A stretch of 51,246 bases of DNA from an uncultured Bacilli bacterium (GTDB lineage: Bacteria; Bacillota_I; Bacilli_A; RFN20; CAG-288): assembly GCA_944371605.1 (NCBI GenBank), contig CALVXU010000003.1, positions 1 to 51,246 on the forward strand, written 5' to 3'. Shown piece by piece: positions 6,634 to 13,416 of the stretch; the stretch's first letter is position 1; every line of letters starts with the position of its first letter. Below the pieces are notes generated by a model. It did not search any database. It was not told the origin of the DNA and worked only from the letters and a program-made list of their open reading frames with translations. Made by a program: the position numbers and the translations under genes.

Positions 6634-8220
6634 ATGTTAAAAATCAATGATGTAAGTATGCAATTCGGAGGACGTGTTTTATTTAAAGATGTCAATATCT
6701 CTTTTACGAATAATGAATGTTACGGCATCATCGGAGCTAACGGCGCTGGTAAATCAACTTTGTTAAGGATTATCTCTGGCGAACTAGAACCGACTTCTGG
6801 AAACGTCAGTAAAGATCCTAAGGAGAGAATGTCAATACTCAAACAAGATCATAATGCTTATGATGAGGTGGAAGTTCTGAGGACTGTCCTTTTAGGATAT
6901 CCTCGTTTAGTGGAAGTTATGGATCAGAAGGATGCGTTATATTGTAAACCTGATTTTTCTGATGAAGATGGCATTTTAGCTGGTGAATTAGAAAATGAAT
7001 TCGCTGAGATGAATGGTTATGATGCTGACACCGAAGCGAGTCAGCTATTAGTCTCATTAGGAATCAAAGAAGAATATCATCATCTGAAGATGAAAGACTT
7101 AGATGCGCGATTAAAAGTAAAGGTTTTATTGGCTCAAGCGCTGTTTGGAAATCCTGATATCTTGATTTTAGACGAGCCGACTAACAATCTTGATGCGATG
7201 GCATGTAAATGGCTTGAAGAGTATTTGATAGACTTTCCTAATACGATATTAATCGTTTCACATGATCGCTATTTTTTAAATCGTGTTTGCACGAGAATCT
7301 TAGATGTCGATTACAATTCGATATCGTTGTTCGCTGGTAATTATGATTTTTGGTTTCAATCGTCACAATTGATTCAATCACAGATGAGGGATCAAAACAA
7401 AAAGAAGGAAGAGAGAATCAAAGAATTAAAAGATTTTATCGCGCGTTTCGCTGCTAATGCGGCTAAGTCTCGTCAGGCTACATCGAGAAAAAAAGCGTTA
7501 GAAAAAATAACTTTGGACGAGATCAAGCCTTCTTCGAGAAGATATCCCTTCATCTCATTTAAATCCGATTATCAGCTTGGCAATGATGTTTTAGAAGTCG
7601 AGAGTCTTTCGAAGGATGGATTTTTTAAAAATTTGAACTTTGTTCTGAGAAATACAGATAAAGTCGCTTTTTTAGCGGATAATTCTTTAGCTATAACAAA
7701 ACTATTTGATATTTTGAGCGGTGTTGATGAAGAATACGATGGTAAGTTTAAATACGGAATCACCATCCATCCGCAGTATATTCCTAGTTCTTTAAATGAG
7801 TTCGAGGCTATCGAATGCAATCTTGTAAATTATTTGAGGCCTTATTCTAAAGATGACACCGATACATATATACGTTCTTTTTTAGGCAGAATGCTCTTTT
7901 CTGGCGAGGAAGCCCTCAAGCCAGTTAAAGTTTTATCTGGCGGTGAGAAAGTTCGTCTGCGTTTTTCTAAAGTCATGTTGGATCCGGGAAATTTGATCAT
8001 GTTAGATGATCCGACTAATCATTTAGACTTAGAGAGCATCGAGGCTTTGAACAGGGCGATGAAAGACACAAAATCAGTTTTACTATTCACTTCTCACGAT
8101 CGTGAATTATTAAATACTATCGCCAATCGTATCATCTATCTAAAAGCTGATGGAAGCTATATAGACAGATATATGACTTATGATGAGTTTGAAAATTTTA
8201 TCAATGGTAACAGCTATTAA
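6634..8220 (+). CDS. ABC-F family ATPase (YkpA/YbiT-like)
   Basis: A soluble protein with two ABC domains joined by a linker, which is the ABC-F architecture; these act on ribosomes rather than in transport. In domain 1 the Walker A GANGAGKST (residues 34-42) and Walker B ILILDEPTNNLD are intact, but the signature is replaced by MKDLDARLKVKV. In domain 2 the Walker A is degenerate (ADNSLAITKLF), while the signature LSGGEKVRLRF and Walker B MLDDPTNHLD are kept. I recall similar changes in YkpA/YbiT-type members, so this is probably a subfamily trait rather than decay. A charged linker lies near residues 245-290. A strong GAGGAGG ribosome site precedes the ATG. The gene stands alone after the pfl terminator. 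Confidence 0.93.
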   Translation: MLKINDVSMQFGGRVLFKDVNISFTNNECYGIIGANGAGKSTLLRIISGELEPTSGNVSKDPKERMSILKQDHNAYDEVEVLRTVLLGYPRLVEVMDQKDALYCKPDFSDEDGILAGELENEFAEMNGYDADTEASQLLVSLGIKEEYHHLKMKDLDARLKVKVLLAQALFGNPDILILDEPTNNLDAMACKWLEEYLIDFPNTILIVSHDRYFLNRVCTRILDVDYNSISLFAGNYDFWFQSSQLIQSQMRDQNKKKEERIKELKDFIARFAANAAKSRQATSRKKALEKITLDEIKPSSRRYPFISFKSDYQLGNDVLEVESLSKDGFFKNLNFVLRNTDKVAFLADNSLAITKLFDILSGVDEEYDGKFKYGITIHPQYIPSSLNEFEAIECNLVNYLRPYSKDDTDTYIRSFLGRMLFSGEEALKPVKVLSGGEKVRLRFSKVMLDPGNLIMLDDPTNHLDLESIEALNRAMKDTKSVLLFTSHDRELLNTIANRIIYLKADGSYIDRYMTYDEFENFINGNSY

Positions 8221-8292: not shown

Positions 8293-8320
8293 AGTGTTTT
8301 CTTCACAGGTTAACCTCACC

Positions 8321-8476
8321 GATAGCGCCAATGTAGTTTCCTACAAAGAGTCTGTTGGAATCTTATTTCCACAGCCCAATCATCAAGTTTGCGGCTTGAT
8401 GTTTCGGCGGCTCAACCTTTCCTTAATCCTTTCAGGTGCCCCAGTATTAAGTACTATTTATCACCGCGCCTCTATC
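8321..8476 (-). ncRNA. Lysine riboswitch (L-box) aptamer, no gene downstream
   Basis: On the minus strand the conserved lysine aptamer elements appear in order. They are GATAGAGGCGCG (P1 start), AGTA, CCTGAAAGG, GAGCCGCCGAAA, a P3 hairpin CATCAAG...CTTGATG, and ATTGGGCTGTGG. Next come a P4 hairpin GGAAT...TTCC, a P5 hairpin TGTAG-GAAA-CTACA, and GGCGCTATC closing P1. This matches the Bacillus lysC leader pattern. Lysine riboswitches normally sit in front of lysine biosynthesis or transport genes. Here the RNA runs directly into the 3' end of the oppositely oriented ABC-F gene. A plus-strand open frame at 8294-8479 is only its shadow. Confidence 0.9.
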
Positions 8477-8498
8477 TGAATACAGAATTTTTTTAACT

Positions 8499-8526: not shown

Positions 8527-8586
8527 GATAAAAAATATTAAGATATGGCAAAAATAATAAAATTGGGATATTTTATGCGTTTTTTC

Positions 8587-8615
8587 TTGACACTCCGCAT
8601 AATTCAAGGTGTCAA
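8587..8615. promoter_or_regulatory. Inverted repeat upstream of the sipW operon
   Basis: TTGACAC (8587-8593) and GTGTCAA (8609-8615) are perfect inverted copies separated by 15 bases, in the region between the riboswitch promoter and the sipW-operon promoter. The half-site resembles the TTGTCA/TGACAA pair around the operon's -35, so a common regulator is possible. No regulator gene is adjacent. Confidence 0.4.
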
Positions 8616-8648
8616 AATAAATCATAAAGTATTTACTAACTACTATTG

Positions 8649-8692
8649 ATTGTCATTTTTATGTTGACAATGTTTATTGGGGGGGGTAAAAT
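8649..8692 (+). promoter_or_regulatory. sipW-operon promoter with a G8 tract in the spacer
   Basis: TTGACA (8664-8669) and TAAAAT (8687-8692) are 17 bases apart, the optimal distance. The spacer ends in eight consecutive G (8679-8686), directly touching the -10 box. Such a tract is exceptional in this AT-rich sequence. Poly-G or poly-C tracts between -35 and -10 are the known phase-variation device of Neisseria porA and opc, where slippage changes the spacing. The -35 also lies inside the inverted repeat ATTGTCA-N9-TGACAAT (8649-8671), a candidate operator. The ribosome site before the ATG at 8735 is GGGGG, a weak match. Confidence 0.75.
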
Positions 8693-8734
8693 CAAACAAA
8701 ATATTAAGACATTTTTAAAAATGGGGGTTTAAAC

Positions 8735-9460
8735 ATGTCAAAGAAAAAGTATATTGCAATTCTTCCTGGTCTTGCTATCTTATCACTTGTCGGTGCAGGT
8801 TTTTCGACTTGGTATTTCCAAACTAGCGACACTAGAATATCGAACATCGATGTTGTCGTGACTGATTATTTGGATACTGGTAGACTTGACGTCACTGGTA
8901 GTCTCAAATTAGTTTTAGATCAAACTGCTTTTGAACAAAATGGTTATGATGATCAATTAGGTCTTCATTTTGAAGGCTCTTTAACTTTGACCTATCACTT
9001 GCCAAAATGGCAGTCATTCAATGGTGACGATGCGGCTTCTGGTGATGCTCAAACTGCTGAGAATGTCATCACTGGTATCGATGACGAAAAATTGGATTGG
9101 ACGTATGATCTCACACCTTATGTCAATCCTAACCCAGGTGCTCATGAACAAGTTTCTGTCGAAGAAACATATAAGAAATATATCTCTTGGAATAAGACTC
9201 CGGCGATTTCGACCGAATCTACTCCTGCTTGGAAAGAAACACCGAATGAAGATCTTCCTAACGAGTACATCTATGTTTTGACTTTAGATGGTGCGGCTAT
9301 GAACTCTAGTGATGCTTTTGCATTCAAGTATGCTGATAGAAATCTTGAAAGCAATATCATCGGTGAGCCGAAGAGCTTAGCTGAATATGAGCAAATGGTC
9401 GCTGATTTGCAAAATACCTACATCCAATTCTACGTGGGTGTCGCTTACGCTGCTGACTGA
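8735..9460 (+). CDS. Exported protein with SipW-type signal, candidate TasA/CalY-like surface protein (241 aa)
   Basis: The N-terminus has lysines, then the hydrophobic segment ILPGLAILSLVGAGFSTWYF and QTSD. This resembles the SipW-dependent signals of TasA/camelysin-type proteins, where G-x-G is followed by small and aromatic residues. The mature part is acidic, beta-rich and cysteine-free. It ends in an amphipathic strand, YIQFYVGVAYA, recalling the last strand of TasA (inference). It is the first gene after the G8 promoter. A hairpin separates it from the signal peptidase gene, so it may be the most abundant product of the operon. No overall homologue recognised. The signal is nearly the same as in the 177-residue protein at 10657 (GGGFATWYFTTSD). 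Confidence 0.75.
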   Translation: MSKKKYIAILPGLAILSLVGAGFSTWYFQTSDTRISNIDVVVTDYLDTGRLDVTGSLKLVLDQTAFEQNGYDDQLGLHFEGSLTLTYHLPKWQSFNGDDAASGDAQTAENVITGIDDEKLDWTYDLTPYVNPNPGAHEQVSVEETYKKYISWNKTPAISTESTPAWKETPNEDLPNEYIYVLTLDGAAMNSSDAFAFKYADRNLESNIIGEPKSLAEYEQMVADLQNTYIQFYVGVAYAAD

Positions 9461-9478
9461 TCAATGATTATTTTATGT

Positions 9479-9510
9479 AGGGGCAAGGTTCTTGCCCCTG
9501 CATATTTTTT
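9479..9510 (+). terminator. Intra-operon hairpin after the first exported-protein gene
   Basis: AGGGGCAAG-GTT-CTTGCCCCT is a perfect 9-bp GC-rich stem with a 3-base loop. After GCATA a run of six T follows. It lies 82 bases before the signal peptidase ATG. It may be a leaky terminator or an mRNA 3' stabiliser that makes the upstream substrate more abundant than the downstream enzyme. Repression of the downstream genes by separate transcription cannot be excluded. Confidence 0.7.
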
Positions 9511-9542: not shown

Positions 9543-10655
9543 ATGAATATTTCTACCATAATTGCGATATGTGTGCTTGCTTTGTTCACTATTGTTTATC
9601 TTGTTTGTTTTGGAGTGATGTTTCATTACTCATCAAAAAATTACTTATTGGCAAACAATGATGAAGAAATTGAAAAAGATATTCACGATGAATATAAAAA
9701 ATATCTAAAAAATTATGATCCTGATGAGGAGCAAACTTTTTTAGAATATGCTGCACAAAAGAAAAAGAATGCACACAATAATTCGATTGTTTTGAACATC
9801 ATCGACTGGGTGATATGTATTCTGTGTGTTGCCTTTGTCGCTTTTGCCGGTTATATGAAATCGCAAAGTCAACAAGTATTTATTGGCAATACTTCATTAT
9901 TAGTTATTGAAACAGGTTCGATGGCAACTGTCAGTGATTTCAATGACTATATCGAAGAAAATAATTTGACCGATCAAATACCTGAGTCTTCCCTTATCAC
10001 TATTAATAAAGTCAAGTCCCCTGAGGATATGGAGCTTTATAAAGTGTATGCTTTTAAAGTTGATGATCAAGTCATCGTCCATAGACTCGTTGAAATAGAT
10101 ACTTCTGGTGCTGAAACAACTTATACATTTAAAGGTGACGCGAATGCAGGATCACTAGATTTTGAGATAGATATGACATTCGATAAAGTGTTAGGTGTTT
10201 ATACAGGTTTCAATAATCAAGTGCTAGGAACTATCATCATTTATCTTCAATCCCCAGCTGGTATCATTGCTATTTGCTGCGCAGTAATCATTTTATTAGG
10301 ATATGATATTTATCACTCTAAATCTATGAAGGCTTATCGAACCCGCTATGATTTATTGGCTTTTGATGCTGAGAAAATTTATTATAAACTCGAAGATTTG
10401 AAAAACACTCGTATCGTCAACGATAAACTTATCGGCAATATGCGCAATCATAATATCAAGACTTATCGTTATGTTCAGACACTAGTTTCGAATAAAGTAT
10501 ATCCGATCGGTTCTCAAGGCATCATTTTGAAAGTTTTAGAAAAAGGCAAGAAAGTAAAAGTTCTTATCACGGATGCTAAACAACCAGACGTTTTGATTTA
10601 CAATTCATGTGATGTGACTGTCATTCCTTTCCCTTATAAAAAAGAGGTGAAGTGA
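9543..10655 (+). CDS. sipW: SipW-type (ER-type) signal peptidase I with long C-terminal domain
   Basis: A membrane signal peptidase of the Ser/His type found in archaea, the ER and Bacillus SipW. Catalytic serine S126 lies in LLVIETGSMATV. The general base is a histidine (H180 in VIVHRLVEI) instead of bacterial lysine. The conserved aspartate is D199 in TFKGDAN. Transmembrane segments lie at about 5-27, 84-104 and 235-256, so the N-terminus carries an extra segment and a charged loop. Residues 260-370 form an unusual cytoplasmic tail ending in a beta-rich, NfeD/OB-like piece (YPIGSQGIILKVLEKGKKV...). SipW of Bacillus is about half this length. It very likely processes the three neighbouring exported proteins. 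A good AGGAGG site precedes the ATG. Confidence 0.88.
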   Translation: MNISTIIAICVLALFTIVYLVCFGVMFHYSSKNYLLANNDEEIEKDIHDEYKKYLKNYDPDEEQTFLEYAAQKKKNAHNNSIVLNIIDWVICILCVAFVAFAGYMKSQSQQVFIGNTSLLVIETGSMATVSDFNDYIEENNLTDQIPESSLITINKVKSPEDMELYKVYAFKVDDQVIVHRLVEIDTSGAETTYTFKGDANAGSLDFEIDMTFDKVLGVYTGFNNQVLGTIIIYLQSPAGIIAICCAVIILLGYDIYHSKSMKAYRTRYDLLAFDAEKIYYKLEDLKNTRIVNDKLIGNMRNHNIKTYRYVQTLVSNKVYPIGSQGIILKVLEKGKKVKVLITDAKQPDVLIYNSCDVTVIPFPYKKEVK

Positions 10656-10656
10656 G

Positions 10657-11190
10657 ATGACTGGAAAGAGAATTTTGCTGGCTGGCATACCAGTTTTGGC
10701 ATTTGCTGCACTGATAGGAGGTGGCTTTGCCACTTGGTACTTCACCACTTCAGACCAAGTGTCTGAAAAGATTGGAGTCACCATCACTGATGAATCAGAA
10801 ATCGGTGAGATCACTGTTTTAAATGCTGATGACATTTTTTTATCATTAGATCAAAACGTTCATCAGTTATCAGAACCTTTGCAGGTCCGTTTTACTCCAG
10901 TTGATGAACTGGTTTCGGATGTTGCACCAGATGTTTCATCGTTTGAATTCTCTTATCATTTAGAATTTGAAAATGAAGATAGATTTCGCGAGTATCTAGA
11001 TTTCCAAAACGATGGTACTTGGAATGATGGTGAGTTTACACAGATTGATAACAAGTGGGTTTATCAAGCAGAAATCAATCCGACATTCACTCTCGTAAAA
11101 GTTTTTACTAGCGTCAGTCAATTTAATGAAGTTAAAGCCGCAGTCATTCAACCTTTCTCTTTTACTATATATGCTGAGTTAGCGGGATAA
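10657..11190 (+). CDS. Exported protein with SipW-type signal (177 aa)
   Basis: The second candidate substrate. The signal is MTGKRILLAGIPVLAFAALI followed by GGGFATWYFTTSD. It shares the GxGF-(S/A)-TWYF-x-TSD block with the 241-residue protein, although the rest of the two proteins differs. The mature region is acidic and beta-rich, lacks cysteines and ends with FSFTIYAELAG, again a terminal beta strand. It starts one base after the signal peptidase stop behind AGAGGTGA, so it is co-translated with the peptidase. A fibre minor subunit or cap is an inference. No family recognised by overall sequence. Confidence 0.75.
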   Translation: MTGKRILLAGIPVLAFAALIGGGFATWYFTTSDQVSEKIGVTITDESEIGEITVLNADDIFLSLDQNVHQLSEPLQVRFTPVDELVSDVAPDVSSFEFSYHLEFENEDRFREYLDFQNDGTWNDGEFTQIDNKWVYQAEINPTFTLVKVFTSVSQFNEVKAAVIQPFSFTIYAELAG

Positions 11191-11205: not shown

Positions 11206-13416
11206 ATGAAAATTAAAAGTATTATCGCTTCTATCGCCATCGGTTTTCTCTTTATTTTCACATGTGTCGGCACAGGTTTAGCTTATTTTTTCTTTGAAGC
11301 ACAACCAGTAAAAACACAAAATTTTCAAACTAAATTAGATGATATCGAAGAGAATTATTCTGTCTCAGACGATTCGTTTAAAGCACAAAATTATTACGAT
11401 GTTTATTTCTTCGCTCAGTCTTATGCTGCTGATACTGCTACTCCTCGTTATAATAGCGCTAACAAATTCATTGGTGTTAACTATAGTCCTGTGACTACAA
11501 GTAATAGTTATGTTCGTTATTCATCTTATTATTCTCTTAGATGGCACGATACTTATGGAACTGTTCGCCCGCAAGAATATGGGTATTGGCCTTCAAAAAC
11601 GATAGTTTCGAATCCTGATATTGATGTCCAAAATGCAGTGAGTGATTCTGCAGGTACTGAGTATTCAAGTTATATTACCAATTATGAAGAAACTACAGCA
11701 CCATATGTCGGTTATAAACATTTGCGTGTTTATCAGTCGATAACGACAAGTCAATTTAAGAGCATCGGTAGCCCAGCATCGGCTGGAAGAGATAGACATA
11801 ATTGGCCTAATGAAGATGGTAGCAACGGTCAATTAGCTTTTTCAGGATGGACTGCTAATAGAGCTGCTGCTTTTGAATATGCTATTAAGGTTCAGTCAAG
11901 AACGTTTAAAGATACCGGCATTTTCGGTATGCCTGTTGAATCCCCATCAAAAGATGTTGTTTATGGTGGTGGACAAGGTGATTTCGACTATGTAGATGCT
12001 TTTACGTCTTTAGAAGTTTTAGACCAAAGTGATGCCGATGGCACTAACGCAGGTGATAATGTCATTTTCCTTTATCCTATTTATACTTCTGGTAAAGATT
12101 ATGAAGCTAGCGATAATAATCAAGCTAGAACAACTATGGAGTTAAATATTACTAGCACTGGTCAAAGTGAAACGAGATTTTTATCACAAACAAGAAATCC
12201 AGCTAGCGGAACTTATAATTATGATTTGTTTGAAATCACCAATATTGTTGTCGATGATGTAAAAAATACTAATTCAATGTTGAGAGCAGCTCCAGCAGAA
12301 CCTGGACATGGATGGACAGGTGGCTGGGTCGATATACCAACTCAAAATAATAGCAATGAATTATTCTTTTATAATGGTATTTATAATTTATATGTTTATT
12401 TTATAAATTATAATGAATCTGGATATAATAATTATTCATCTAACATAGAGTTAGCTGAAAATGCTGCTAATTCTTTAACAGGTGTTTTCGTCAATACATT
12501 TGAAGGTGAATGTATTCCTTCAGATGGCAGTTCAGCTTTCCATTACATCATTAAAGTAGAAAGGGTTTATGAATTCCACTTGGTCGGTGGCGCTGGCGGT
12601 ATGAATTCCTTTAATTTTGATTCTACTAGTTCAGAACACCTGTATCAATTGACTGATGAAGACACTGAAATAAATACCAATCAATTCTCTACTATCTATT
12701 TCGCTTCTAATATTTTTATCGGTGATGACTTATCTACATTTGATTCGATAAATGGTTTAGAGGGATGGGCAAAAGGTAATGTCTTTGGTGTAGCCGCTGC
12801 TAACGATTTACATCACATCGAAATAGAGCCGTTTACCACTGCTGATTCTGAATGGAATGAACATCAATATGATGACCCTAATAATCCTTATCATACAATC
12901 ACTGATGATGGTTTATTGCAGCGTGCGGTACAAAGCGAAGATTATGAATTAGTCAGAAATCCTTCTACTACTGAAGAAATGCCGGAATTGATAAAGATAA
13001 CTTCAGCTGGCTATTATGACTTCATTTTTAAGATCACTTTCAAAAAAAGTTCGACTAGTGGTTCGGAAGATTTCACAAATTATATCTCTTCCATTAAGGT
13101 CGCAACTAGAGTAGCAAATAATACTGCTTTCATCAAAATTTATCAAAATGATTTGACAAATTATGATGAAAATGGATTTATTGATCACTCAGCTTTACCA
13201 TCATATCAAGCTAATGTCGATATCGGTGCAACATTGAATGATGTGATTTTCCATTATGGCACAGGCAGTCAGTCCAGCATCGTGTTCTCTACCCTAGTTC
13301 AACAGCTGAGAAATAACAGAAATGTTGTTCTCAGAGACCATGTGACTGGTGAGATTGTTGACGGCACTATGCGCGTGATGAAGAATTACATCTTCTATAT
13401 GTCAAGTGCAACTTAA
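11206..13416 (+). CDS. Large exported surface protein (736 aa), third SipW-type substrate
   Basis: The N-terminus has a long hydrophobic segment (IIASIAIGFLFIFTCVGTGLAYFFFEAQ) with the same G-x-G-x-A-aromatic pattern as the other two, though more diverged. The mature part is rich in Ser, Thr, Asn and Tyr, with no LPXTG sorting signal and no C-terminal membrane anchor. It looks like several beta domains, for example the region around RVYEFHLVGGAGG. It may be the adhesive or tip component of a surface assembly; this is inference from operon position and composition. An AGGAGG site precedes the ATG, 15 bases after the previous stop. A terminator closes the operon. No family recognised. Confidence 0.75.
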   Translation: MKIKSIIASIAIGFLFIFTCVGTGLAYFFFEAQPVKTQNFQTKLDDIEENYSVSDDSFKAQNYYDVYFFAQSYAADTATPRYNSANKFIGVNYSPVTTSNSYVRYSSYYSLRWHDTYGTVRPQEYGYWPSKTIVSNPDIDVQNAVSDSAGTEYSSYITNYEETTAPYVGYKHLRVYQSITTSQFKSIGSPASAGRDRHNWPNEDGSNGQLAFSGWTANRAAAFEYAIKVQSRTFKDTGIFGMPVESPSKDVVYGGGQGDFDYVDAFTSLEVLDQSDADGTNAGDNVIFLYPIYTSGKDYEASDNNQARTTMELNITSTGQSETRFLSQTRNPASGTYNYDLFEITNIVVDDVKNTNSMLRAAPAEPGHGWTGGWVDIPTQNNSNELFFYNGIYNLYVYFINYNESGYNNYSSNIELAENAANSLTGVFVNTFEGECIPSDGSSAFHYIIKVERVYEFHLVGGAGGMNSFNFDSTSSEHLYQLTDEDTEINTNQFSTIYFASNIFIGDDLSTFDSINGLEGWAKGNVFGVAAANDLHHIEIEPFTTADSEWNEHQYDDPNNPYHTITDDGLLQRAVQSEDYELVRNPSTTEEMPELIKITSAGYYDFIFKITFKKSSTSGSEDFTNYISSIKVATRVANNTAFIKIYQNDLTNYDENGFIDHSALPSYQANVDIGATLNDVIFHYGTGSQSSIVFSTLVQQLRNNRNVVLRDHVTGEIVDGTMRVMKNYIFYMSSAT

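Follow-up and report, generated by a model that had tools for sequence, protein, structure and literature searches.

Does a run of eight G residues between the -35 and -10 boxes of a promoter act as a phase-variable switch in an uncultured member of the Bacillota? The question is raised by a stretch of 51,246 nucleotides from an uncultured Bacilli bacterium (the whole stretch analysed, called the window here), in which such a tract precedes an operon encoding a SipW-like signal peptidase and exported proteins. Slippage at G tracts is a route to phase variation known chiefly in pathogens (Neisseria, Treponema, Campylobacter) and, among commensals, in Bifidobacterium. Searches of the open-licence literature found no reports of such switches in the lineages considered here or on a SipW-type operon.

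Architecture of the tract promoter

A preliminary description of the window reported a consensus promoter with G8 at the end of a 17-base spacer, and this was confirmed both by direct reading of the sequence and by a promoter scan, in which the site, with 11 of 12 matches, was the top plus-strand promoter-like site of the region. The spacer (8670-8686) consists of ATGTTTATT followed by GGGGGGGG, and 42 bases separate TAAAAT from the first gene of the operon (Table 1). The range originally given for the switch (8649-8692) begins 15 bases ahead of the -35 box, and its functional core is confined to 8664-8692. A homopolymer of at least about seven residues thus lies between near-consensus boxes, as in the promoters of porA and tp0126. 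The tract starts nine bases past the -35 box, an arrangement distinct from the opc type, in which the homopolymer overlaps that box. An inverted repeat upstream of the promoter is a possible operator.

The tract is the single run of at least seven G in the window. It yields two overlapping G7 matches, a count equalled in five of 100 dinucleotide shuffles, and within the 51-kb window taken alone it is only mildly unusual and not decisive.

The neighbouring DNA also carries a lysine riboswitch (RF00168, 64.4 bits; 8315-8482, minus strand) with its own promoter-like site (8526-8499). It is almost unaltered in the sister species (G012) and faces the 3' end of an ABC-F gene (6634-8220, plus strand), with no same-strand gene close downstream; possibly it is an orphan that functions as an independent or antisense RNA.

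Table 1. Features of the tract promoter and its operon (window positions), and G tracts across the draft genome (contig:position).
Feature	Position	Strand	Basis or remark
-35 box, TTGACA	8664-8669	+	Sequence and scan; unaltered in sister species G012
G8 tract, last 8 of 17 spacer bases, proposed slippage site	8679-8686	+	Sequence; G9 in G012 (L101)
-10 box, TAAAAT, directly abutting the tract	8687-8692	+	Sequence and scan; G-tract/-10 junction recurs in relatives
GGGGG, ribosome-binding-site-like, 7 bases before ATG	8723-8727	+	Sequence; putative role
Inverted repeat TTTTTCTTGACAC-N15-GTGTCAAAATAAA, upstream of promoter	8581-8621	+	Arms retained in G012; putative function
Gene 1, 241-aa exported protein, SipW-type signal peptide region LVGAGFSTWYF	8735-9460	+	No family hit; orthologue in G012
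Strong terminator-like hairpin after gene 1, before sipW	9474-9504	+	Scan; putative function
SipW-like type I signal peptidase (ER/archaeal type)	9543-10655	+	NF046067, 42.6 bits (cut-off 190)
177-aa exported protein, SipW-type signal peptide region GGGFATWYF	10657-11190	+	No family hit
736-aa exported protein, probably the last gene of the operon	11206-13416	+	No family hit
Tracts abutting TAAAAT or TATAAT	window 8679-8686; C4:18025; C15:44443; C17:16668		
Tract within long promoter spacer	C15:25032		
Tract ahead of DUF2971 gene	C18:15505 (L111)		
Intergenic tract, about 100 bases before galU-like gene	C14:42847		
Lipoprotein tract, MLTGC-N-GGG-ESS	C30:153446		
Lipoprotein tract, ITSC..TTPPPTT	C30:119039		
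Lipoprotein tract, LLTSC..STPPTST	C19:73803		
Lipoprotein tract, SLTSC..GTGGG	C30:143774 (L104)	-	Frame broken

A genome-wide set of G tracts

The tract does not stand alone but belongs to a set spread over the genome. A pattern search of the 1.43-Mb draft genome recovered 11 runs of at least eight G, ten of them exactly G8. In a 451-kb sample of this AT-rich genome, deliberately drawn to include tract-bearing contigs and therefore inflated in absolute density, the numbers of G/C runs fell from 1893 (length three) through 294 (four) and 21 (five) to none at lengths six and seven, with eight at length eight and one at length nine, where a first-order Markov model predicts 0.26 runs of at least eight. 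The choice of contigs does not explain the absence of runs of six and seven. Given this gap and the nine runs beyond it, the tract belongs to a separate class of runs in excess over chance, not to the tail of the ordinary ones. There are four copies of the string GGGGGTANAAT in the genome, each with G8; the reversed control is absent.

Six of the 11 tracts are located in promoter spacers or promoter-like sites, and four lie inside lipoprotein genes, 1-12 residues past the lipobox cysteine. In one of these genes (C30:143774), the reading frame breaks exactly at G8 and the homologous region resumes in another frame; the sister species carries an interrupted run at the orthologous place. Tracts positioned just after a signal sequence fit a frame switch, not a promoter element, which points to the tracts as a class being slippage sites. 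All 11 can be considered candidate switch sites.

Tract length in the sister species and in more distant relatives

The preliminary description had pointed to related genomes as a check on the proposed switch, and among them the tract is not fixed at G8. The genes around the locus have 74-80% DNA identity with those of the sister species, and the intergenic stretch from the riboswitch to the start codon about 95%; in these nearly identical flanks the sister promoter carries G9, giving a spacing of 18 instead of 17, and the few other differences in the promoter region are substitutions outside the boxes. For eight of the 11 tracts this species has a G7-G9 run at the orthologous position, in most cases of equal length. 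Their persistence while neighbouring third codon positions diverge suggests that the tracts are maintained, and the retention of length eight by several of them suggests that slippage is not extremely fast.

The combination of a G tract with a -10 box recurs well beyond this species pair. Across 59 relatives, G6 followed by TANAAT was matched 30 times, against three matches to the reversed pattern. The pattern TTGA-N6-28-G7-TANAAT gave 38 distinct sites in 24 of the 279 genomes searched in the order (one control match), and the stricter TTGAC..G8TATAAT gave 22 sites in 11 of 247 genomes of the class (no control match). Promoter tracts range from G7 to G16 among relatives, and tract sites of all kinds from seven to 18. 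Related loci differ in length, with G7 and G10 in the aligned flanks of a lipoprotein promoter (G185 and G186), G8 and G10 in the promoter of a paralogue of the SipW operon, and G8, G11 and G18 in the first tract of a DUF2971 cassette in three genomes. Together with the G8/G9 pair, these differences support the site as a strong candidate for a phase-variable switch; length differences with conserved flanks (G8/G9 and G7/G10) are, so far as the comparison goes, differences between species, not strains.

Outside promoters, a DNA methyltransferase gene of one relative (G041, C1:59721; L021, 915-1684) is divided between two frames, with the break exactly at a G10 tract and its two halves matching opposite ends of PF01555, and is a candidate phase-variable methylase. 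Several tracts of other genomes lie within a few hundred bases of contig ends (G489:C4:83, G411:C96:31663, G028:C85:33, G033:C3:257 and G045:C22:383), where assemblies would be expected to stop if they are interrupted by mixed tract lengths or repeats.

Genes behind tract promoters tend to encode exported or membrane products. On a simple hydropathy rule applied to the product, 49 of 63 have a signal peptide, lipobox or membrane segment, compared with 117 of 341 background genes (odds ratio 6.7; Fisher p 1.6e-10), a ratio that is only indicative as the background comes from this one genome and the targets from many. The SipW-type operon is itself an instance of such a surface or exported target.

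The SipW-type operon

The view that the operon encodes exported proteins was borne out by its SipW-type signal regions and its SipW-like peptidase. This peptidase scores far under the curated cut-off of NF046067 and is therefore called SipW-like only; the catalytic residues of ER/archaeal type I signal peptidases (Ser-Met, His-Arg and Asp) are all present, and S126-M127, H180-R181 and D199 are invariant in 29 aligned homologues. The three exported proteins matched no Pfam or NCBIfam family. The two small ones share the motif G-F-S/A-T-W-Y-F, which is typical of SipW substrates. Gene 1 is probably made the most abundant product of the operon by the terminator-like hairpin that follows it, and the product of the operon is probably a cell-surface fibre or coat. 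Tracts accompany this type of operon elsewhere: at eight of 30 loci with a SipW homologue, a same-strand G8-G10 tract lies 55-910 bases upstream, each beside a -10-like box. No C-tract was found upstream of the homologues at any of the 30 loci.

Proposed mechanism and mismatch repair

The promoter architecture, the excess of tracts over chance, their recurrence, the length differences between orthologues and the frame breaks located exactly at tracts are all consistent with slippage, and the G8 tract is probably a simple-sequence contingency switch operating by slipped-strand mispairing. Mispairing at replication would add or remove G residues within a population, and their number would set the distance between the -35 and -10 boxes and, through it, transcription, which presumably begins at this promoter. 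With G8 and a spacing of 17, the assembled sequence is predicted to be in the ON state; G9 (spacing 18) would still be fairly active, and larger changes would lower expression or turn it off. The tract length of a short-read assembly is a consensus and may be off by one. The predominance of G8 (ten of 11 tracts, and several orthologues) counts against the proposal to the extent that it would fit slow as well as fast slippage.

MutS1 (904 bits) and MutL (494 bits) are encoded by this genome and by most tract-bearing families, so the rate of switching may be modest or moderate. Nearly all families other than f5 have both proteins. In the f5 genomes searched (G026, G033, G038, G043 and others; 96-100% complete), MutL was not found, nor was MutS1 at the cut-off. 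The family is mostly without tract promoters, and the longest promoter tract, G16, belongs to one of its members without the two proteins (G033). Loss of mismatch repair was considered as a cause of the tracts and rejected, given the presence of both genes here and in most tract-bearing families and the joint scarcity of repair genes and tract promoters in f5.

Spacing and alternative explanations

The spacings of 44 tract promoters bear on how such a tract might work. They range from 13 to 22, on both sides of 17, and a spacing of exactly 17 occurs in two of the 44 against 7.2 expected by reassorting tract and flank lengths (p 0.008), in a set that is phylogenetically non-independent and whose boxes were assigned by a lenient pattern. 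The control with ordinary promoters contained too few sites, and no spacing peak was visible in it. The deficit of 17 is a lead only; if real, it would mean either that the majority of these loci were sampled while weakly expressed or that the G run acts partly by other means. A tract that slips but works mainly through DNA structure, or through a regulator bound at the G run, would account for the scatter and for the paucity of 17; such mechanisms have been discussed for T. pallidum tprL and N. meningitidis opc (PMC7864442), and the inverted repeat just upstream of the promoter could be read in the same way. We consider this explanation unlikely at the present locus, where near-consensus boxes flank the tract exactly and the spacing is 17; sampling of loci in their low state could by itself produce the deficit, in a set of promoters whose limits have been given above.

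The uniformity of the tracts in this genome, ten of 11 being exactly G8, could instead mean that selection preserves the G run, without slippage, as a static promoter element or a binding site for a regulator, and the presence of mismatch repair and the constancy of several orthologous tracts at length eight agree with this. A fixed element would not be expected to scatter the spacing from 13 to 22 or to span lengths of seven to 18 among tract sites, and lipoprotein and methyltransferase genes contain identical tracts, at which two of these genes are frame-broken; a static role is accordingly judged very unlikely. Poly-G artefacts at read ends are produced by some instruments, and the nearness of several tracts in other genomes to contig ends might be taken as a sign of them. 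The tract studied here lies in mid-contig between unique flanks, and its orthologue, with nearly identical flanks, comes from an independently assembled genome. These two facts, the extreme ratios of forward to reversed-control matches and the gap in run lengths led to the rejection of chance and of sequencing or assembly artefact, which have hardly any probability left.

Possible mobility of tract promoters

Some tract promoters appear in company with DNA that is shared between genomes. C15:44443 and its counterparts in G012, G004 and G113 share their upstream DNA, which ends in AYATLTRYKLDYE or a close variant; the G113 copy resembles phage terminase large subunits (83 bits). At L138, L165, L170, L197 and L198, tract promoters are directly preceded by terminase-like remnants, and the genes behind these recurrent combinations of remnant and promoter differ between genomes. 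Promoters of the form TTGACTTTT..Gn..TAAAAT, together with shared upstream DNA, are found in different families with different surface genes downstream, and G051 and G186, which also belong to different families, have an identical 15-base promoter start, TTGACAAAAATATGC. The DUF2971 gene, which has a conserved leader and is common to different genera (G000:C18:15505, L111; G015:C7, L168; G004:C2, L144), with a second run of G5 or G9, resembles a mobile cassette.

Different cargo may thus move together with switch promoters or be captured by them. It is conceivable, as a tentative extension, that in Bacillota lineages the G-tract/-10 unit serves as a transferable module for switch promoters, a reading based on the shared upstream DNA and promoter, the identical 15-base start and the under-representation of spacing 17. 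Were it correct, cargo genes would be captured behind a ready-made stochastic switch, and uncultured Bacillota would have a repertoire of switchable surface genes on a par with those of Campylobacter and Neisseria.

Comparison with known systems

If poly-G tracts act as switches throughout such genomes, with promoter-spacer tracts as a recurrent design and SipW-type operons as repeated targets, uncultured Bacillota would randomize their surface, and a single assembled genome would show one among many expression states. In porA of Neisseria meningitidis, a poly-G tract lies within the promoter spacer of a surface-protein gene, with an optimum spacing of 17 (PMC7864442). The tract promoter shares the poly-G spacer, the spacing of 17 and the surface or exported target; unlike those of this unrelated Gram-negative bacterium, its G residues abut the -10 box, and it drives a SipW-type operon. 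In tp0126 of Treponema pallidum, poly-G is also located between the -35 and -10 boxes and transcription is best at a total spacing of 17 (PMC7864442), as shown by experiment, whereas the evidence presented here is comparative. The preliminary description had likened the tract to both porA and opc. The likeness to porA holds, being one of spacing type. That to opc is loose: the homopolymer in the opc promoter also controls an outer-membrane protein, but it is a poly-C run overlapping the -35 box, with a regulator thought to mediate its effect (PMC7864442), and tp0126 is the better precedent. The tract promoter is therefore a strong candidate for a member of the porA/tp0126 kind, here in an uncultured member of the Bacillota.

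As a genome-wide set, the tracts recall those of Campylobacter jejuni, in which G/C tracts of at least seven residues, 12-29 per genome in a likewise AT-rich species, provide the main route of phase variation (PMC4965091). The C. jejuni tracts are mostly within reading frames, whereas at least half of those described here are in promoter spacers, in a genome with both MutS1 and MutL. Among gut commensals, tracts of G9-G12 slip in Bifidobacterium breve UCC2003 and control surface pili (PMC9187656); in this actinobacterium the switch is an intragenic one that alters the frame of sortase-dependent pili, whereas the candidate switch described here lies in the promoter spacer of a SipW-type operon.
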